Of a DNA stretch of 62,841 bases, positions 7,405-62,841 are shown one piece after another. Made by a program: the position numbers and the translations under genes. Below the pieces are notes generated by a model that was given only the letters and a program-made list of their open reading frames with translations, did not search any database and had not been told where the DNA came from. The number at the start of each line of letters is the position of its first letter. The first letter of the stretch is position 1. Where the stretch lies: IMG/VR virus record IMGVR_UViG_3300046167_000691, positions 1 to 62,841 of that record; one strand, given 5' to 3'. The DNA comes from a virus.

Positions 7405-8943
7405 ATGAATCAAATAGTAAAACAATTTAGCTTTGGCGACAAAGGTAGAGAAAAAGTGTTTAAAGGTATCGAAACACTTACGGAAGCCGTAGCCTCAACA
7501 TTAGGAGGTGGCGGTGAATGCGTAATTTTTGAGGATGCCCAGGGAATACCTGTAATAACTAAAGACGGCGTAACAGTTGCCGAATTATCTGTACTATTAG
7601 ATCCTGTAGAAAATATGGGAGCATCACTAGTTAAACAAGCAGCTAGAAGAACAGTAGCGGAAGCCGGAGACGGAACAACAACTTCTACCGTATTGGCTTA
7701 TGCAATACTAAAGGAGTTTGCTAAATCGCCTATGAAATTTACTAGCAGACAAAAAAGAGATGCAATAAATAATATTATAGATAAAACTTTAACTCACTTA
7801 GAAAAGCAGGCTAAACCAGTTAATGGTGATATGATCGACGAAGTGGCTACTATATCTACTAACAATGATGCTGAACTGGGTAAACTAATTGCCGATGCAT
7901 ACAGAGCAGTGGATTTAACGGGCGTTGTTATGATGGAAACATCACAAGACGGGAATACGAGTATAGAGGTAGTTGAGGGGGTGCAGTATGAAAAAGGTTT
8001 TACTAATAATCATTTCGTAACTAATCACGCAAGCAATACAGTAGAGCTGAATAATCCAAAAATATTATTAGTTGATTCGATGGTAGACACGATTAGACAA
8101 ATACAAACTATATTAGAACATGTTATAAAAAATAACCTGGCACTACTTATAGTTGGAGACGTTGATCCTAAAGTTGCCGCAGCCCTTGCAATGAATAAAA
8201 ACAAAGGTTCTATAAAAGTTAATATAGTTCCAGCACCTACACACGGTGTTAATAGAAAAGAAATATTTGATGATTTAGCTTTATTAACAGGAGCAACTGT
8301 AGTAAGCGAAAATTTAGGTGATGATTTAGATTTAATTGATTTAGATTGTTTAGGCACTTGTATTAAGGCGGTATCAACGTTTAAAGATACAGTTTTTCAA
8401 GTAGCCGAAGAACAATCAGAAGATATTAAACTAATTATTGAAAGTATAAAAGAACAATTGCTTATAGAAAGCAATCCCAACAAAATAGTTAAACTTGAAA
8501 AAAGATTAGCTATGCTAGCTGCAAAACTTGCAATAGTAAAAGTTGGAGGTAATTCTGAGGTTGAATTAAATGAAAAGAAAGATAGAGTTGAAGATGCAAT
8601 ATGCGCAACTAAAGCTGCTATAAAAGAAGGTGTGGTTGCCGGTGGCGGAGTTGCACTAATTAATGCAATCAGAAGTATAAAACCAAAGTCATCTAGTGAA
8701 GAACTAGTTATTGAAGCTTTGTATTATCCTTGCAAAACGATTATGAAAAATGCAGGATTAGAATATGAGCATATAAATAAAAAAGATTTTGGCGTTAATG
8801 TTGAAACTGGAAAAACAGTAAATATGTTTAAAGCAGGTATTATAGATCCTGTACTAGTTACAAAGTCAGCATTAAAAAATGCTGCCTCAGTTGCTTCGAC
8901 TATATTGTCTACCAACTGTGTTATGTCTAACGTAAGAGGATAA
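7405..8943 (+). CDS. groEL: phage GroEL-type chaperonin, 512 aa
   Basis: Group I chaperonin large subunit that folds proteins in an ATP-driven ring, in the infected cytoplasm. Seen: ATP-site GDGTTTSTV near residue 92, VITKDGVTVA, apical EGVQYEKGFTNNHF with the substrate-binding aromatic pattern, and VEDAICATKAAIKEGVVAGGGVAL with the catalytic Asp. It is about 35 residues shorter than E. coli GroEL and lacks the GGM-repeat tail. Phage chaperonins are known in marine viruses. GroES follows after 1 base. Likely clients are capsid or giant virion proteins (inference). Confidence 0.95.
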   Translation: MNQIVKQFSFGDKGREKVFKGIETLTEAVASTLGGGGECVIFEDAQGIPVITKDGVTVAELSVLLDPVENMGASLVKQAARRTVAEAGDGTTTSTVLAYAILKEFAKSPMKFTSRQKRDAINNIIDKTLTHLEKQAKPVNGDMIDEVATISTNNDAELGKLIADAYRAVDLTGVVMMETSQDGNTSIEVVEGVQYEKGFTNNHFVTNHASNTVELNNPKILLVDSMVDTIRQIQTILEHVIKNNLALLIVGDVDPKVAAALAMNKNKGSIKVNIVPAPTHGVNRKEIFDDLALLTGATVVSENLGDDLDLIDLDCLGTCIKAVSTFKDTVFQVAEEQSEDIKLIIESIKEQLLIESNPNKIVKLEKRLAMLAAKLAIVKVGGNSEVELNEKKDRVEDAICATKAAIKEGVVAGGGVALINAIRSIKPKSSSEELVIEALYYPCKTIMKNAGLEYEHINKKDFGVNVETGKTVNMFKAGIIDPVLVTKSALKNAASVASTILSTNCVMSNVRG

Positions 8944-45163: not shown

Positions 45164-47026
45164 TTAAGTAATCTCACATGCCCCTCCTGCACAAGCAAGT
45201 TCTCCAGATAAGTCGGTTTCATCGTCCTCTTCTTCAATTCTAGAAATATCAACTAATTTTAACGTTTCCATCATTTCATAATACTTCTCTCTTGTAATAT
45301 CTTCAAAAGGAGCCTGAACATAAGTGCCTCCGTTATAAGGTAACACAGATAGACCATTGTAAAATTCTTTGTTATCCCACATCCAATCACCAATCAATTC
45401 CCATTCATCTTCTTTAATAGATACAGTAGCCGATATATTATGTGTATTTCTACCGTCTCTATGGCCCGGTTTAACCCACATCTCAGATACAAATTTTACA
45501 CGCTCAAGAAGTTCAATCGGATGTTCTGTTCTAAGCATAGATCCTTTCGGCGCTCTTTGAGGTATTGATATCACAGCAGTGTCATGAGGTCTAAAGTATT
45601 CATCTTCAATTAGTTCAGGGTGGTTTTCAGCAAGGAACTTGTACATTGACTCGTTCTTACCTACACGTATTCTTCTTACATAATAATCATTATGCCAAGC
45701 GTGAATACCAGATGACGTTCCTAGCGTCAATGATGTAGTCCCTGCTGGTTTAACCGTTGTTGATCTAGCTGATGGGTTAATGCCAATTAATTTTGCAACA
45801 CGTTTATTTTCTGCTTTAACAAGCAGTGCTGCTTTATCCATGTCTAATTTTAAGACTTTGCCAGATCCAATTCCTGTGATTGAGACGCCAATTAAAGCAT
45901 CTTTTTCTGTTGTGGTTCTCCATATATCTCTAAGATAATGAAAGCTTGTGTATGACGCTTGTAGCGTTCCTATAAAGGCTGCATGAGTTACACGTCTATC
46001 AAATGCTTCTTGCGTATCTAAGTCTGATCCATTTACTTCACATAAATTACAAAATTGATAAGGTCGAAGTGCAATTTCGCAACAAGGGTTAGTACCCCAA
46101 TCTTTATCATTAGTTAAGTAAAATCCAGGTTCACCAGAACCAGATAACTCAATACGTTTCCATAGATCCGTAAAATAACCTTTGGTTAACTTATCTCTCA
46201 TTAGTACAGCTGAATTATTAGCTCTACCACGTTGTGGATTTTTTTCCCACCAATCTCCTGACTTACAGCCAATCATTTCAACATCATCAGATGAGAATAA
46301 AGAAATTAAAGCTGCTCGTCTTATTCCTCCGGCTAAAACTGAATCAGCAATGTGACATATAATATCATGAGCTTGCACTGTACTTAGATAATCTCCGTCT
46401 TTTAATGAATCTAATATACCTGTTATCTTTACTATAGCTTCTTTAAGAGGCTGAGGCCCCGGTGCTTTGCCCCCAGATGTTACTAATCTTGCTCCTTTAG
46501 CGCGTATATCTGAATAATCAAAATCAATTCTTGAAGATCTTTTGTTGCCTAAGTACGACTTCATCAATACTTTAATTGCATCAGCCCAACCTTCTATAGA
46601 ATCCATTACTAAGAATCTACGAGTACGTTTTTCAAATGGTACAGTTACAGATGGTAGCTTAGCTACATGATGTTTCTGGACTGAATAACCTACTCCAGTT
46701 CCGCCTAATAACAAAAACATTGTTTCACTAAAAGCAGCTACAGACTCTACAGGTAAGTAAGCGCAGTTATATATCCTATTAGGAGATATTTCGATAGGCT
46801 TACCACCAAATTGTAGGCTACGCATGCTTGGTAATATATTTTTGCTATACACATCTTCATAAGCTGCTCTTATTTCTTTTTCTAAGTTTGGAAATTTCTT
46901 TATATGCATAGATTCATTTCTAAACACAAGCTGATCCCAAGTTTCTCTACGCTTTGTTTCTGGTATATATTTTGCATATTTCATAAATACCGTTATGTCA
47001 CTTAATATTCTGTTTGATTTGTTCAT
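45164..47026 (-). CDS. nrdJ: class II (B12-dependent) ribonucleoside-triphosphate reductase, 620 aa
   Basis: Makes deoxyribonucleotides from ribonucleoside triphosphates with adenosylcobalamin. Seen: first redox Cys in NCAYLP (C88), finger loop NPCCE (N313, thiyl C315, E317), second Cys region QFCNLCE (C326/C329), and C-terminal shuttle pair CAGGAC (C612, C617) with the same spacing as Lactobacillus RTPR. Monomeric RTPRs are common in marine phages and fit a host able to obtain B12. It is shorter than the bacterial enzyme (about 740). It ends the replication arm. Confidence 0.9.
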   Translation of the reverse strand: MNKSNRILSDITVFMKYAKYIPETKRRETWDQLVFRNESMHIKKFPNLEKEIRAAYEDVYSKNILPSMRSLQFGGKPIEISPNRIYNCAYLPVESVAAFSETMFLLLGGTGVGYSVQKHHVAKLPSVTVPFEKRTRRFLVMDSIEGWADAIKVLMKSYLGNKRSSRIDFDYSDIRAKGARLVTSGGKAPGPQPLKEAIVKITGILDSLKDGDYLSTVQAHDIICHIADSVLAGGIRRAALISLFSSDDVEMIGCKSGDWWEKNPQRGRANNSAVLMRDKLTKGYFTDLWKRIELSGSGEPGFYLTNDKDWGTNPCCEIALRPYQFCNLCEVNGSDLDTQEAFDRRVTHAAFIGTLQASYTSFHYLRDIWRTTTEKDALIGVSITGIGSGKVLKLDMDKAALLVKAENKRVAKLIGINPSARSTTVKPAGTTSLTLGTSSGIHAWHNDYYVRRIRVGKNESMYKFLAENHPELIEDEYFRPHDTAVISIPQRAPKGSMLRTEHPIELLERVKFVSEMWVKPGHRDGRNTHNISATVSIKEDEWELIGDWMWDNKEFYNGLSVLPYNGGTYVQAPFEDITREKYYEMMETLKLVDISRIEEEDDETDLSGELACAGGACEIT

Positions 47027-47176
47027 TTATAATACTCTAATTTTAAATTCATCTTGTTTTTTAACTAATTCTTTCCACGATATCTTACCTTTATTGTTCC
47101 AGGACCATTTAACCCATTTGGCTATCTGTCTTTCTGCATAAGCTTTACGTGCTAATTGTTTTTTATTTCCTACCAT
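47027..47176 (-). CDS. small basic protein, 49 aa
   Basis: Translation begins MVGNKKQLARKAYAERQIAK and continues WVKWSWNNKGKISWKELVKK. Rich in Lys and Trp. It overlaps the nuclease gene end by 14 bases and shares its frame edge with the reductase start; spacing supports a real gene. Function unknown. Confidence 0.55.
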   Translation of the reverse strand: MVGNKKQLARKAYAERQIAKWVKWSWNNKGKISWKELVKKQDEFKIRVL

Positions 47177-47615
47177 CTAATATAAGTTTAATCATTAATG
47201 CTACATCTTTTTGGTTTTGAGGTTTGTAAAGTGTTCGTGTCTCGCCGTTGCTTACACACCAGCGTTTGAACAATTTCCACCTAAGCGGAAACTGCTCGTT
47301 AGCTCTTCCTTTGCATTCTATTATATAATCCTTACCAGTAAAGTCAGGAGTATATTTAATGCCTAGTATTTTCTTCTGTCCTCTATCTTTCATATCGCCC
47401 TTGCCATTTGATTGTTTCTCAAAAGATATATTAGGGAAACGAAAACCCTCTAAAGTTTGAAAGATTTCTTCTTCATACTTTTCAAATAACCCAGATTCTT
47501 TAAGGGCTAAATACGTATGCTTTTCAAGACCAGATCGAAAACTGATCCCATCGGCGCTAGCTTTCTTAGCGCGAACTGGACCTTTCTTTTTGCTTCCACG
47601 TTTAAAGCGTTTCAT
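47163..47615 (-). CDS. PD-(D/E)xK-type endonuclease, 150 aa
   Basis: SFRSGLEKHTYLALKESG then KYTPDFTGKDYIIECKGRAN holds the PD..ExK active site (Asp, Glu, Lys) of restriction-like nucleases, of the DUF1064 or endonuclease I kind. Basic N tail KRFKRGSKKKGPVRAKK. Likely roles are recombination junction or packaging-substrate processing. It overlaps the upstream gene by 14 bases. Confidence 0.75.
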   Translation of the reverse strand: MKRFKRGSKKKGPVRAKKASADGISFRSGLEKHTYLALKESGLFEKYEEEIFQTLEGFRFPNISFEKQSNGKGDMKDRGQKKILGIKYTPDFTGKDYIIECKGRANEQFPLRWKLFKRWCVSNGETRTLYKPQNQKDVALMIKLILDGRK

Positions 47616-48456
47616 TCTTTACAAATGATCCGTTAATCATAGAGCCTTTACGTTTGCTAATAACATCATAAGCACTAGCAATACAATCTTCTATATCGTG
47701 TCCTGCTAAATAAGCTAGGTTTGTTAGTACAACAACCATATCACCTATTGCATCGACAATCTCAGGCTCATCTGCTTTAATGATTGCTCTTGCAAGCTCA
47801 CCAGCTTCTTCTTGTAGTTTTATAAATTGTGTTTTGATATCTCCTTCTTCATACAAACCACGCTCTGAAGCCCATTCGCGTATTGCGGGGAATATACATT
47901 TACCACAACTAGTAGAAACGTATTCATAATTAACTTCCATTTCCATAGCTTCTGCTATAGTTGGTGGCATGTCTGATTTAATAGCTTTTGTCATTGCTTT
48001 ATTGTACACATAACATCTATCGTTATTATACATTGACGTCCTAGCGTTTTTCTTGCACCAACCGATTAAATTGTCGTTTACAACAAACTTTTGACCATTT
48101 TTTAATTCAATAGCTCTTCCTCTATTGTCTATAAGATATGCTTCTAACTCTCTTGCATAACAAGGGAATGTTGTTGTCATTTCAGTAACATTGATTTTAA
48201 ATTTGTTCATAGTCTTTGGTTTTTGTTTATTCATTAACTCTTTATAGCTTTGTCTGTCTACAGAATAACCGTAAAATTTTTGGTATTCTATTTCCTTAAC
48301 AGAAGCTGACTCTAGATCTCTAGATACAAAAAGCAATTCAACTTCTTCTGGTTCATAACCTTGTTGTTCAAAGACTCTGTCTCCTAAATCTTTTGTCATA
48401 CCTACTTTTACTTTAGGTATATGATAAACGTAATACATTGGTTTTGTTTTACTCAT
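47602..48456 (-). CDS. GIY-YIG-like / MazG nucleotide pyrophosphohydrolase fusion, 284 aa
   Basis: N-terminal MYYVYHIPKVKVGMTKDLGD resembles GIY-YIG (T5orf172-type) nuclease cores. Residues 90-190 are unassigned and include CYVYNKAMTKAIKSDMPP and a Cys pair (TSCGKC). The C-terminal 90 residues are a MazG domain: QFIKLQEEAGELARAIIK and EIVDAIGDMVVVLTNLAYL with the EExxE and ExxD metal sites. MazG hydrolyses NTPs or ppGpp-like compounds. Combining these in one gene is unusual; whether the first domain is active is not known. Confidence 0.65.
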   Translation of the reverse strand: MSKTKPMYYVYHIPKVKVGMTKDLGDRVFEQQGYEPEEVELLFVSRDLESASVKEIEYQKFYGYSVDRQSYKELMNKQKPKTMNKFKINVTEMTTTFPCYARELEAYLIDNRGRAIELKNGQKFVVNDNLIGWCKKNARTSMYNNDRCYVYNKAMTKAIKSDMPPTIAEAMEMEVNYEYVSTSCGKCIFPAIREWASERGLYEEGDIKTQFIKLQEEAGELARAIIKADEPEIVDAIGDMVVVLTNLAYLAGHDIEDCIASAYDVISKRKGSMINGSFVKNETL

Positions 48457-48467
48457 AGGGTTTTGTT

Positions 48468-49295
48468 TTATTTACCTACACTCAACGGAGCTGATATGGC
48501 AGGTAAAGGGTTATAATTTTTTATTCTTATTTCATTTAATTCAGGTATATGTAATATAAATTTTGAATCTATAAATATACCATAGTCTAATTCTAATTCT
48601 GCGCATTTAGGATTGTTATGTCTGTATAAAAATTCATTAGCTTGATCTATATGATTATTATATAGATGACAATCTCCTAACTGTCCTATTAGTCTACCTG
48701 GCTTTAGCCCTGCTCCTTTGGCCAACATTTCTAATAATATTCCATACATTGCAATATCATAAGGCAATCCTAAAAATACATCTGCAGATCTTTGTTGCCA
48801 CATTAAATCTAGCTTACCATCATTAATGTATACTTGAAATGCATAATGGCATGGGGGCAAAGCCATTTCTGGCATGTCAATCGGATTCCATGCGCTAACT
48901 AATAATCTTCTTGACTTAGGGTTATAGTCTATATCATGCACTAACTTATAAAACTGATCAAGTCCTCCAAAATCTCGCCATTGTTTTCCATATACGGGAC
49001 CTAATGTTTCATCTGTTCTGCTAGATCTTTCATAGTCTGGTCTCCAGTACTTAACTCCATTATCTTCAAGATATTTTAAGTCTGTCCTACCGTTAAGAAT
49101 CCATAATAATTCAGTTCTTGCTGCGTTGAAGCTAATACGCTTTGCATTAATGATAGGGAACCCAAGAGACATGTCGTGTTCAATAGTCCTTCCGAAGACT
49201 GATCTAGTTCCAGTTCCTGTACGATCTGCTTTAGCTTTTCCTCCATGCAATATAGCTGATAGTAACGCTCTGTATTCATCTTGTATATTAGTCAT
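48468..49295 (-). CDS. thyA: thymidylate synthase (ThyA type), 275 aa
   Basis: Converts dUMP to dTMP using methylene-tetrahydrofolate. Seen: substrate Arg loop ADRTGTGTRSVFG, catalytic LPPCHY (C149), QQRSADVFLGLPYDIA, and the late NHIDQ region. Length is close to E. coli ThyA (264). The C-terminal end differs from the usual PVAV. With the reductase it builds a dNTP supply module. Confidence 0.95.
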   Translation of the reverse strand: MTNIQDEYRALLSAILHGGKAKADRTGTGTRSVFGRTIEHDMSLGFPIINAKRISFNAARTELLWILNGRTDLKYLEDNGVKYWRPDYERSSRTDETLGPVYGKQWRDFGGLDQFYKLVHDIDYNPKSRRLLVSAWNPIDMPEMALPPCHYAFQVYINDGKLDLMWQQRSADVFLGLPYDIAMYGILLEMLAKGAGLKPGRLIGQLGDCHLYNNHIDQANEFLYRHNNPKCAELELDYGIFIDSKFILHIPELNEIRIKNYNPLPAISAPLSVGK

Positions 49296-49500
49296 TTGTC
49301 AATACTGATTTAATTTTTTCAACGTAATTAGCTGCATCTAATAGCTCCTCTTGCAAATGTTGTAACCAAGTTAATAAACTTGAGTTATCGCCATCTAATG
49401 TGACATTATACTTCTTAAAGCCAACATCTGATCTGCTAACTAATTGGTTAACTACCTTCTCAATTATTGGATCTCTAAATTCTATTTCTTTTTTTGTCAT
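49288..49500 (-). CDS. small acidic helical protein, 70 aa
   Basis: Overlaps the thymidylate synthase start by 8 bases. LLTWLQHLQEELLDAANYVE looks like the core helix of a MazG-like or dNTP-related fold, but only one half is present. Function unknown. Confidence 0.55.
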   Translation of the reverse strand: MTKKEIEFRDPIIEKVVNQLVSRSDVGFKKYNVTLDGDNSSLLTWLQHLQEELLDAANYVEKIKSVLTND

Positions 49501-53566: not shown

Positions 53567-54331
53567 TTACAGTAAATCAGGTAGTTGTAAGTCGTTTGTT
53601 TTTTCTACTAATTTTCTTAAAGCTTCTCGTTTAATTTCAGAAATTCTAGCACCCTTCATTTTGTAAGAACCTTCTATTCCAAATATCTCACAAATTTCAA
53701 CTGCATTGTGTTTGTCGCAATCAAGCCCAAACGATAATCTTATAACATCACTCTCACGTTCGGTTAAATGTTTTTTTAATAAAGCTAAAAGATAGTTATT
53801 AATAAGATCTAAATTATAATGTTGTGAAGTATCTGATATTTCTATTTGAGTATCTTCGCCTTCATTATTAGATATTTTAAAATCACCCATATACATTGAC
53901 TTAGATTTATTCAGTAAAGTGTTAACTATTGGATCGCTAGACTTGTTTCTAATTTCATTTATTTTCCACTCTGGTATTTTAATATCTCCCATATTTGCAT
54001 TAATATATCTACGTATAGTTCCTTTTATTCTTTTAGATAAAAAGGATTTTAAAGTTTGCTCAATATTAGCGGATTCATTTAATATTACCCAGTCTATTTT
54101 ATCTATAGCCATTATTAAACCAACATTACCGGCTTGTATTAGATCATTTATGCTTAATATGCCTATAGCTTGATGAGAGGTTGCAAATTTACGAGCTAAG
54201 TTTTCTACGAGAGGCATAAACTTTATAATCAGTTCGTCTCTGCTATACTCGTCCCAAAATAAACCTTCTGGCATTGATAATTTTAAATCTTCTTTATACC
54301 TAATGTAATTTTGTACATTGTATTTTTTCAT
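53567..54331 (-). CDS. phage sigma-70-like transcription factor, 254 aa
   Basis: Region 2: LVENLARKFATSHQAIGILS, then INDLIQAGNVGLIMAIDKID and FLSKRIKGTIRRYINANMGD for core binding and -10 melting. Region 4: LTERESDVIRLSFGLDCDKH, then VEICEIFGIEGS and ISEIKREALRKLV helix-turn-helix. Region 1 is missing, as in many phage sigma factors. It could direct host RNA polymerase to the late-class sites; the genome has no polymerase of its own. Confidence 0.85.
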   Translation of the reverse strand: MKKYNVQNYIRYKEDLKLSMPEGLFWDEYSRDELIIKFMPLVENLARKFATSHQAIGILSINDLIQAGNVGLIMAIDKIDWVILNESANIEQTLKSFLSKRIKGTIRRYINANMGDIKIPEWKINEIRNKSSDPIVNTLLNKSKSMYMGDFKISNNEGEDTQIEISDTSQHYNLDLINNYLLALLKKHLTERESDVIRLSFGLDCDKHNAVEICEIFGIEGSYKMKGARISEIKREALRKLVEKTNDLQLPDLL

Positions 54332-61104: not shown

Positions 61105-61210
61105 TATAAAAACTCTTCTTTTAGTGTAATTTAGTTATATAGAGTTAACTTACTCACTGGTCTTATAGTGAGTCTTTGACTCTACTTTGTTAGTTTTACC
61201 TAACTAAATA
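61105..61210 (+). ncRNA. candidate small RNA behind late-class promoter 6
   Basis: Two hairpins follow the promoter: ACTCACT/AGTGAGT (61152..61173) inside an outer AGAGT/ACTCT pair, then GTTAG/CTAAC (61189..61204). No coding frame over 20 codons. End undefined. Confidence 0.35.
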
Positions 61211-61246
61211 GTATATTTACACTTAAATACCCTAGTGAGAACCGTT

Positions 61247-61462
61247 TTAACAACAATTACATCGATCCCACTCTTTACCGTTTCTACATGTTTCACCTAA
61301 AACTTCTAAATCGCAGAATTCTCGGTGATAGAACTCTATTAACTCTGTTGTAGTGAACTTCTTCCTCCACTGAGTTGTCTGTTCGATCCAGTGGTACTCA
61401 CCGGATTTTTCTACATTTCCGTCATTCATCCATTCTAACATTTCTTTAGTTACTTCATACAT
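61247..61462 (-). CDS. small early protein with C-terminal CNCC, 71 aa
   Basis: MYEVTKEMLEWMNDGNVEKS, YHWIEQTTQWRKKFTTTELI, then a cysteine-rich end (CRNGKEWDRCNCC) that may bind metal. This copy is intact, the left copy (55..271) is frameshifted. Promoter a' at 61506..61528 lies upstream. Confidence 0.7.
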   Translation of the reverse strand: MYEVTKEMLEWMNDGNVEKSGEYHWIEQTTQWRKKFTTTELIEFYHREFCDLEVLGETCRNGKEWDRCNCC

Positions 61463-61505
61463 AGTTATTATATTTAATTATTAGTTTATTATTAATTACA
61501 CTTTT

Positions 61506-61528
61506 ATTATATATTACATGTCGTTTTT
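61506..61528 (-). promoter_or_regulatory. early-class phage promoter, site a (right copy)
   Basis: Same layout as 315..337: AAAAACGAC, 8 bases, TATAAT, with TATAGC upstream. Confidence 0.65.
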
Positions 61529-61659
61529 GCTATACACACACTCTGTTTTGTGGTGAAAGATCGATCTTTTTAGCTAAAATACGGTGAATTTGGCTAAAGA
61601 ACATAGGTATGCTATACACGCGGTGTAGATTACCGCATGTTACAGTCCGTTTTGACTAC

Positions 61660-61791: not shown

Positions 61792-61842
61792 AGTGTATAG
61801 CATTTTAAGTTATTAATTATTAATTATTATTTGAGCAAAAGC

Positions 61843-62160
61843 CTACTTTTCAGTAGACTTTGCTTCAGTTATTTCAGCTAGATGTCTAACTGTGCTCGGT
61901 AGGTTAGTACTCTGTGACCAGTACTTTCGCTTGATCCAACATGCTTGCAGTTGTAGCTTAGGCAGCATTGCATTGAGTATTGTATCATGACAGTATGTTA
62001 CAGTTTGCTTTTTGTTGTTAACAAAGGTGATCTGTTGGTTGCGACCGAGCCAAGACTCTCTGACTACAAAGTTTTTTCTGATGATCGGAGGCCAGATCTT
62101 AGCTTTATCTTCGTTTGACATTGTTTTTAGTGCTTTTTGCATAATTTCATTTGTGCTCAT
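61843..62160 (-). CDS. hypothetical early protein, 105 aa (right copy)
   Basis: Almost identical in protein to 474..791 (differences at the C end: AEITEAKSTEK against ATITEAKSTKK) but with many silent DNA changes. Real coding gene under selection. Function unknown. Confidence 0.75.
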   Translation of the reverse strand: MSTNEIMQKALKTMSNEDKAKIWPPIIRKNFVVRESWLGRNQQITFVNNKKQTVTYCHDTILNAMLPKLQLQACWIKRKYWSQSTNLPSTVRHLAEITEAKSTEK

Positions 62161-62207
62161 AATTTTTAATTTTAAGTTTATAATTTATTTTTAGTTTATA
62201 TATTAAT

Positions 62208-62230
62208 ATTATATATTAATAGTCGTTTTA
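62208..62230 (-). promoter_or_regulatory. early-class phage promoter, site b (right copy)
   Basis: Same as 839..861. Confidence 0.6.
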
Positions 62231-62318
62231 GTTATTTTATATAAATTAATTAAATTTAATATTTATTTTTATATTTATTTTAATTATAATAATTATATTT
62301 ATTATTAACTACATTTAT

Positions 62319-62341
62319 ATTATATATATAGTGTCGTTTTT
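62319..62341 (-). promoter_or_regulatory. early-class phage promoter, site c (right copy)
   Basis: Same as 950..972, with TATAGC in the -35 position. Confidence 0.6.
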
Positions 62342-62398
62342 GCTATACACAATGCTATGCACATTTTGCGATAGAGTAAAAAAATGCTATACGCAGCC

Positions 62399-62461
62399 GG
62401 ACCCCGGCTGGTTACCTCCGAGGTCAATTAGCTGAGGTCATCCCACCTCACACCAAGGTCC
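62399..62461 (-). ncRNA. candidate structured RNA element B (right copy)
   Basis: Same fold as 1030..1092; the one difference seen (loop base T to A on the plus strand) leaves both hairpins intact. Confidence 0.45.
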
Positions 62462-62467
62462 GATGCG

Positions 62468-62620
62468 CTAGACTGAAGCCCAGAACAGATCTCTCTGCTC
62501 CGGACTTAGTCCTTTTAAGTTCTCCTGTCCGAACATATCCAGACAGATCTGGGTTCTTCTCTCAGACTCAGCTATGCCTTGCATAACCTCATCCCATGCT
62601 TGCGAATTTGTTTTATACAT
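62468..62620 (-). CDS. small hypothetical protein, 50 aa (right copy)
   Basis: Counterpart of 1099..1251, starts MYKTNSQAWDEVMQGIAESE and ends DLFWASV. Conservative replacements only, same length, supporting coding. Confidence 0.7.
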   Translation of the reverse strand: MYKTNSQAWDEVMQGIAESERRTQICLDMFGQENLKGLSPEQRDLFWASV

Positions 62621-62621
62621 A

Positions 62622-62726
62622 TTAATTAGTTTGTGTTAGTGAGTTAAGATATTCTACTGCGAGCGCTAGCTCATAGTCATAGTTCATTGCTTGTGTGTAC
62701 AGGTACTCTTCATTGTAATTTTTCAT
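62622..62726 (-). CDS. small hypothetical protein, 34 aa (right copy)
   Basis: Counterpart of 1253..1357, with the frame kept. Confidence 0.6.
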   Translation of the reverse strand: MKNYNEEYLYTQAMNYDYELALAVEYLNSLTQTN

Positions 62727-62727
62727 A

Positions 62728-62805
62728 TTAGTTTCGGATTGCGAAAGCTGCGGCAGCTCCCAGATTAGACATTACTTTTTTAATTTTGATAATTGCATTT
62801 TTCAT
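62728..62805 (-). CDS. tiny basic peptide, 25 aa (right copy)
   Basis: Counterpart of 1359..1436. Confidence 0.5.
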   Translation of the reverse strand: MKNAIIKIKKVMSNLGAAAAFAIRN

Positions 62806-62841
62806 ATTATAGTTTTTATTAGTTACATTATTATTATATAT

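Follow-up and report, generated by a model that had tools for sequence, protein, structure and literature searches.

Endonuclease II (DenA) of phage T4 is a GIY-YIG enzyme. It is described as cooperating with the dCTPase gp56 and the dCMP hydroxymethylase gp42 (PMC6071114, PMC8056088), which together provide dCTP removal, a nuclease for cytosine-containing DNA and an Asp-type enzyme of the thymidylate synthase (TS) family. We predict a comparable trio for IMG/VR virus record IMGVR_UViG_3300046167_000691, which was analyzed over its whole stretch of 62,841 nucleotides (positions 1 to 62,841, hereafter the window) and in which one gene encodes a putative GIY-YIG domain joined to a MazG domain. 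While T4 keeps these functions on separate genes, the dCTPase-like and the nuclease-like part share one chain in the fusion, and the adjoining TS-family gene of the window looks like a methylase, whereas gp42 is a hydroxymethylase. A T4-type dNMP kinase was found in 0 of the 26 records searched here, and we do not class the fusion as a member of the T4-type cytosine-replacement systems, although it may function in a similar way.

The MazG-like enzyme MazZ of cyanophage S-2L, which works with PurZ and DatZ, has a fold in common with the MazG domain of the fusion and makes the monophosphate precursor of a non-standard base. It is reported to convert dGTP to dGMP for PurZ and to carry two extra C-terminal strands, and the removal of dATP is described as giving the polymerase an indirect specificity (PMC8342488). 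The substrates of MazZ are dGTP and GTP, in a pathway to 2-aminoadenine, and the cited sections describe no nuclease part (PMC8342488), whereas the fusion has its GIY-YIG part. For TS enzymes, the exchange of Asn177 for Asp is reported to shift the substrate from dUMP to dCMP, and in the MetaGPA work Asp177 predominates in TS-family genes on modified-cytosine contigs, where a PF01503-type pyrophosphohydrolase co-occurs with TS on phage contigs (PMC8670742). The window locus resembles these contigs in the Asp residue and in the type of its partner; the words MazG and GIY have 0 occurrences each in the main text of that paper.

We posit that the fusion probably helps to build DNA with altered cytosine, because it adjoins a predicted cytosine-modifying enzyme. 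What appears to be new is the union of the two domains and how strictly it is coupled to Asp-type enzymes; the component families are known, and our searches of open-licence PMC papers found no description of a GIY-YIG-MazG fusion.

Architecture and distribution of the fusion

The fusion gene is read from the minus strand, the plus strand of 47602-48456 containing many stops. Its parts are as follows:

47602..48456, minus strand: GIY-YIG / middle / MazG fusion gene, 284 amino acids (open frame and homologues)
48223..48456, minus strand: predicted compact GIY-YIG-type domain, residues 1-78 (profile matches, AlphaFold2, VIA-align and BFVD search)
48208..48210, minus strand: in-frame ATG (Met83) at the domain junction, a possible internal translation start
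47962..48207, minus strand: middle part, residues 84-165, small alpha/beta
47605..47901, minus strand: MazG domain (all-alpha nucleoside triphosphate (NTP) pyrophosphohydrolase), residues 186-284

The full-length AlphaFold2 model has a mean pLDDT of 85.8. Apart from MazG-type models, every Pfam family was matched by the middle part of at most 2 of 44 members. A HisIE-type fold led the Foldseek list of the full model (best E 0.0035) and was rejected for the middle part at an rmsd of about 12.

Relatives were collected from IMG/VR in two sets. For the first, 6 full-length relatives came from a pattern scan, which also found 5 short N domains standing alone. A C-half profile added 13 more, and an N-part profile contributed the best 80 of the 237 relatives that it matched; the set holds 93 complete fusion copies including the window. 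The second set was drawn with a C-half profile of diverse members that ignored the N part, and consists of the best 80 of at least 589 relatives; 2 of the 80 are contigs already in hand, so that 78 loci were counted. As 5 of the 76 second-set fusions are identical to first-set copies, the union comprises 164 proteins. The counts leave out the truncated L082, the short stand-alone domains of L008-L012, a 61-amino-acid antisense match in L031, and the duplicate contigs L001, L013-L018, L032-L035, L110 and L111.

The fusion is a real, conserved three-part protein and the product of neither chance nor misassembly. Among the 78 loci sampled blind to the N part, 76 were fused, 2 were cut by a contig end and none was found without the N part, and an assembly error, named as a caveat in an earlier sequence-only reading of this DNA, is therefore rejected. 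That reading had described a 284-residue protein with a GIY-YIG-like N end and a MazG C end and had proposed a search for the same fusion in other phages. The joined protein is borne out by the open frame (48456-47602) and its copies, and both domain assignments are upheld by the evidence given below. What it had overlooked are the dCMP-type neighbor, the middle part and the conserved Met at the junction.

Among 50,697 records of cultured phages, a tblastn search with the whole protein matched 1,621 records, none of them covering 80%; the N part found one record at E 0.2 and the middle part none. On bacterial genome contigs, 8 matches spanned the N part as well, all on contigs of metagenome-assembled genomes (MAGs), which may be misbinned phages. 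Four of these (L198, L201, L202, L204) carry labels that we take to denote Bacteroidota, and the other four belong to other groups. The cultured relatives of the window terminase are found in phages of Flavobacterium, Cellulophaga, Tenacibaculum and Maribacter (86 of 87 records), and a Bacteroidota host is therefore likely for this phage group.

The neighboring TS-family gene

The gene next to the fusion carries the residue on which the predicted pathway turns:

48468..49295, minus strand: TS-family gene, predicted dCMP-specific methylase (Asp180, Leu before the catalytic Cys)
48756..48758, minus strand: codon GAT of Asp180, the substrate-switch position

It lies 11 nt upstream of the fusion gene in reading direction and keeps the catalytic Cys, and its Asp180 aligns with an Asn of the TS enzymes of solved structure (Asn177 in E. 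coli numbering). The sequence-only reading had called this neighbor a thymidylate synthase, which holds for the family but not for the function of an ordinary dTMP synthase, as Asp180 predicts that the enzyme acts on dCMP. The annotation 'thymidylate synthase' is thus corrected here to a predicted dCMP-acting enzyme, which changes the nucleotide metabolism to be drawn for these genomes.

Of the 93 first-set loci, 92 have a TS-family gene, and all 92 genes carry the Asp; the remaining locus is cut by a contig end. The distance was measured in 91 loci: 82 have the gene no more than 150 nt upstream of the fusion, and in the other 9 it lies 405-612 nt away. The second set gave a TS-family gene in 73 of 78 loci, again with Asp in 73 of 73. 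Of the five loci lacking it, L130, L139 and L177 are cut by contig ends near the fusion, and L133 and L138 are genuine exceptions, described below; the contig-end-cut L003, L130 and L177 have no TS-family gene on the contig at all.

The dCMP hydroxymethylase of T4 is described by the signature Ser94 and Asp145 (PMC6400193). The window neighbor has Pro-Val and Leu at these sites and so lacks the hydroxymethylase signature; the Leu that it retains at the third position ahead of the catalytic Cys predicts a dCMP methylase (PMC6400193, PMC8670742). By the T4 signature, 36 of 92 neighbors are of hydroxymethylase type (Asp145 in 36/36, Ser94 in all 35 that cover the site) and 56, including that of the window, of methylase type. 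On a tree of fusion proteins with 61 rows, 60 of them labeled by neighbor type, the two types interchange at least 6 times by parsimony, with 2 changes forced by well-supported branches. Two different predicted dCMP enzymes occupy the same place beside one fusion protein, and the retention of the fusion through these switches of enzyme class speaks for a role in cytosine modification.

The association was also approached from the TS side in a case-control comparison, in which one degenerate motif around TS residue 177 was scanned in two versions, coding for Asn or for Asp at that position, and 80 of at least 120 stretches were taken for each; some Asp-type contigs were already in the sets above, and the comparison is not independent of them. 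The fusion was found on 0 of 80 Asn-type stretches, with a single MazG-like protein about 3 kb away in 1 of 80. The 79 confirmed Asp-type loci comprised 71 with the fusion, 1 with a truncated fusion (L377), 4 with MazG alone and 3 with neither. When only loci with at least 1.3 kb downstream were considered, the fusion occurred in 0 of 70 Asn-type versus 65 of 72 Asp-type loci. Because the loci include kin and repeat contigs, these figures represent a strong link and not 71 independent events.

In the four loci with MazG alone (L351, L354, L366, L381), a stand-alone MazG protein of 101-102 amino acids directly follows the Asp-type gene, and no GIY-YIG part was found on the stretch. These proteins are 64-69% identical to the MazG part of the fusion, and the accompanying Asp-type genes are about 32-35% identical to that of the window. 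A pair of MazG and Asp-type TS therefore exists without the nuclease part.

The C-terminal MazG domain

The C end of the window protein matches the Pfam family MazG (PF03819) above the cut-off (26.6 bits versus 22, residues 213-269) and PF01503 slightly below it (20.4 bits, cut-off 21.3). Across 44 C parts, MazG was matched by all 44 and PF01503 by 43 at E <=0.05. The model of the domain aligns with MazG, HisE-type, dCTPase and MazZ chains at best Z-scores from 10.2 to about 8.5, among them S-2L MazZ (7ody, Z 9.8 over 97 residues, reaching the C end) and mouse dCTPase (Z 9.2), and it contains two C-terminal beta strands (271-274 and 277-280). The EExxE metal-binding motif (E216, E217, E220) is kept in 164 of 164 proteins, in which D235 and D239 are invariant as well. 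By analogy, the MazG part is probably a tetramer.

The step from dCTP to dCMP is well supported by gene context, which makes dCTP a reasonably likely substrate of the MazG part. The sequence-only reading had suggested that MazG might lower alarmone or clean nucleotides. For the former we found no support: a cyanophage MazG is reported neither to bind nor to hydrolyze (p)ppGpp and to prefer dGTP and dCTP (PMC6850273), and the context of the fusion is one of cytosine modification. Nucleotide cleaning may still hold as a general role, but it accounts less well for the association with Asp-type neighbors.

The N-terminal GIY-YIG-type domain

We assign the N end to the T5orf172/MUG113 type of GIY-YIG domains and predict that its catalytic set is intact. 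Against MUG113, which we take to be a Pfam model of the GIY-YIG clan, the whole window protein reaches 14.5 bits and residues 1-82 alone 16.7 bits, both under the cut-off of 22.3. Of 50 N parts scanned (47 out of fusions and 3 stand-alone), 44 matched MUG113 (best E 3.6e-5) and 43 T5orf172 (best E 7.5e-5) at E <=0.5, while the Pfam model GIY-YIG was matched by 7 (E up to 0.5) and other models by at most 4. An endonuclease family of PHROG was matched by 6 of the 50, and the N part of the window itself had no PHROG match. Glutamate dehydrogenase and other matches of the N profile to PDB sequences were at chance level (best E 0.065) and were discarded.

The AlphaFold2 model of residues 1-82 (pLDDT 88.7, pTM 0.76) has the order beta-beta-alpha-beta-alpha, with strands at 8-13 and 17-21, a helix at 24-31, a strand at 40-45 and a helix at 48-61. 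In VIA-align, the top six rows are all GIY-YIG domains, two from I-TevI (Z 5.6 and 5.5) and four from UvrC (Z 4.8-4.6), the top row aligning 63 residues at Z 5.6 and an rmsd of 3.3. Viral proteins named GIY-YIG took ranks 4-8 in a BFVD search.

Y11, K17, G19, R27 and E55 are invariant in all 164 aligned fusion proteins, as are H12, Q32, G33, S52, Q59, Y64, D67 and Y71; the putative catalytic residues among them were assigned by motif spacing, not by residue-level superposition. The Tyr of GIY, the Arg and the Glu are described as invariant across the superfamily, and replacement of the second Tyr (that of YIG) by Lys is reported for Hpy188I as a rare known exception (PMC8287910). The N domain of the fusion shares this Lys, as K17, in 164 of 164 proteins. 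Position 31, four residues after the Arg and usually His or Tyr, is variable, with Q in 29 of 59 rows of an alignment obtained by thinning the 93 fusion proteins at 85% identity. A first helix with no conserved His or Tyr is also reported for Odn (Gp88) of phage ICP1, a nuclease of the T5orf172/MUG113 branch that keeps Arg and Glu (PMC8263062). Its partner is described as a RepA-like origin-binding domain, whereas that of the fusion is MazG.

It is plausible, as a prediction, that the joined N domain acts on nucleic acid, and the conserved residues make it likely that this domain is an active nuclease. Stand-alone N domains of 80-82 amino acids occur in other phages (L008 1651-1899, L009 3301-3543, L012 5001-5243), about 1 kb from an apparent terminase gene that was judged by eye.

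Proposed function and alternative explanations

In our proposal, the fusion serves cytosine modification as a two-activity helper, combining a dCTPase with a nuclease for unmodified DNA. The MazG domain would split dCTP into dCMP and pyrophosphate, and would thereby lower plain dCTP, the competitor of the modified triphosphate. The dCMP would feed the neighboring Asp-type enzyme, which would make 5-methyl-dCMP in the group of the window and 5-hydroxymethyl-dCMP in others, and by analogy host kinases might raise these products to triphosphates for DNA synthesis. The GIY-YIG domain would act as a metal-dependent nuclease cutting DNA with unmodified cytosine, be it host DNA or miscopied phage DNA, and would so release more dCMP.

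The architecture, the invariant residues of active-site type and the link to Asp-type neighbors are established at the level of sequence, and the modified base of these phages is predicted from genes only. Drawn by analogy, unmodified-cytosine DNA is the likeliest target of the GIY-YIG domain and yet one that we rate below an even chance, and the proposal as a whole is tentative, falling only a little short of even.

Several observations weigh against this proposal. Many of the sampled loci are kin, and therefore the gene neighborhood may partly reflect shared descent. In the case-control comparison, 3 of the 79 Asp-type genes lack both the fusion and MazG in their vicinity, and two related contigs, L133 (57 kb) and L138 (54 kb), carry the fusion and no TS-family gene:

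L133, 2764-3585: fusion on a contig without a TS-family gene
L138, 2764-3588: fusion on a contig without a TS-family gene

DenA and dCTPase are also reported from T4 relatives without known modification (PMC8056088). Structurally, an unrelated row ties the sixth VIA-align row of the N model at Z 4.6, all Z-scores of that model lie below 8, and a Foldseek search of it against the PDB gave no significant match (best E 0.72). Unrelated SemiSWEET rows reach Z 7.8 against the helical MazG model, and therefore the sequence match to MazG also counts for that assignment. The Glu of the MazG motif ExxD is replaced by Ala, Gly or Ser, with the invariant Asp (D235) one residue earlier, so that metal binding may differ and the site may be partly rearranged. 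Since the S-2L enzyme prefers dGTP, the fold leaves the base preference undecided.

Phage enzymes that were looked for and not found also weigh against the proposal. Besides the missing dNMP kinase, DNA polymerase A had no match above the cut-off in 26 records (one below it), and PolIII alpha was found in 0 of 20 records, other polymerase families such as DNA polymerase B not being searched. Host enzymes would have to take over these steps. The genome may be copied by a host polymerase, in which case control of the nucleotide pool would be important.

One alternative keeps the conversion of dCTP to dCMP for the MazG half and sees in the GIY-YIG half a DNA-binding or structure-specific repair module, serving fork recruitment or branch trimming and unrelated to unmodified cytosine. 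The gene cluster, which holds a primase-helicase (82 of 93 loci), a single-stranded DNA (ssDNA)-annealing protein, an exonuclease and a resolvase-like gene, fits such a module, as do the N domains standing alone near an apparent terminase in L008-L012 (by eye). The four loci with stand-alone MazG beside an Asp-type gene point the same way, since the nuclease part is evidently dispensable for the dCTP step. The invariance of Tyr, Lys, Arg and Glu in 164 of 164 proteins, however, goes beyond the needs of mere binding, and we regard a repair module as somewhat unlikely.

A further possibility, compatible with the two-activity helper, is that translation also starts at the junction Met and yields a middle-MazG protein besides the full fusion, which would give nuclease and dCTPase separate dosage. 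A Met stands 4-16 residues before a T-x-T-F motif in 92 of 93 first-set and 75 of 76 second-set fusions, and it is kept despite a variable linker, at a distance of 8 residues in 83 of 92 and of 5-13 in the others. The nucleotides upstream of it are 60% A, compared with 36% overall and 50% before script-assigned starts. This richness may nevertheless stem from Lys and Asn codons, the script-assigned starts may differ from the true ones, and the Met may simply have been left behind when the domains were joined. A Shine-Dalgarno-like motif precedes the Met in 1 of 92 cases, which equals the assigned starts. We consider the second product somewhat unlikely, and in phages that lack Shine-Dalgarno motifs the conserved Met is only a lead toward internal initiation.

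MazG enzymes are often of wide specificity. The fusion might pair a nuclease for host-DNA turnover with a house-cleaning MazG that acts on dUTP or damaged nucleotides, the link to Asp-type TS being due to the shared descent of one large phage group. Wide synteny (resolvase-like gene in 92/93 loci, primase-helicase in 82/93) is in line with this explanation, as is the retention of the fusion in L133 and L138. It is hard to reconcile with the Asp in all neighbors found, across two enzyme classes that have interchanged repeatedly, with the stand-alone MazG that immediately adjoins divergent Asp-type TS genes, and with the lack of the fusion in all 80 Asn-type loci; we consider it quite unlikely. 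Least of all do we expect a homing endonuclease inserted beside MazG as a selfish element, for although T5orf172 domains are described from a number of putative homing endonucleases, those of phage ICP1 among them (PMC8263062), no patchy presence was seen, with 0 of the 78 C-half-sampled loci lacking the N part (76 fused, 2 cut).

If the two-activity helper is true, it suggests widespread cytosine replacement in an uncultivated group of phages, probably infecting Bacteroidota (at least 589 C-half relatives), and the fusion would provide a sequence marker of such replacement. Joining dCTPase and nuclease in one chain would represent a compact form of the T4 strategy long known from separate genes, and a tool for studying how pool control and DNA surveillance cooperate. 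In its most far-reaching form, one polypeptide would bar plain cytosine twice, by destroying dCTP and by cutting plain-cytosine DNA, with an internal start giving extra dCTPase. This would take place in very common uncultivated, probably Bacteroidota phages with 5-methyl- or 5-hydroxymethylcytosine, whose DNA would be copied by the host replisome, pool control alone setting the base. We regard this extended version as unlikely.

Gene neighborhood and further features of the window

Two further genes accompany the fusion and its TS-family neighbor:

47163..47615, minus strand: DUF1064 / phage-resolvase-like nuclease gene, downstream of the fusion with a 14-nt overlap (92/93 loci)
49288..49500, minus strand: small conserved gene of 70 amino acids in the same cluster (87/93 loci)

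The 70-amino-acid gene occurs on either side of the fusion gene across loci, and the helix pattern of its product slightly resembles, by eye, a second NTP pyrophosphohydrolase. A ribonucleotide reductase gene (45164-47026; PHROG, E 3e-121) lies in the same cluster and was found in 27 of 93 loci within the stretches examined. A carbamoyltransferase was found in 0 of 20 records. Farther away, a sigma-factor-like gene (53567-54331; PHROG RNA polymerase sigma factor, E 2e-17) is present in 45 of 93 loci, many of which end earlier. The gene at 56787-57269 matches Pfam Pyr_excise, a pyrimidine-dimer glycosylase family, at 25 versus 23 bits and bears the PHROG label DNA binding protein.

Elemovirus phages of Flavobacterium have a terminase related to that of the window (44% identity) and share with it the DUF1064 gene, GroEL and Erf. 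Neither a TS gene nor the fusion is annotated among the 89 features of Elemovirus elemoF, and the pyrophosphohydrolase in its annotation shows 24% identity over 70 residues. For the related Manatee Spring phage (60.8 kb), the annotation likewise lists no fusion, and its thymidylate synthase is a FAD-dependent one. The full-length GroEL-like chaperonin gene of the window (7405-8943; PHROG groEL, E 9e-130) has counterparts in both elemoF and Manatee Spring phage. The ends of the window repeat each other, with 1-451 matching 61193-61642 (98.0%) and 470-1472 matching 61839-62841 (95.8%); the spacer is longer in the tail copy, and the window may be either terminally repeated or circular with imperfectly overlapping ends.

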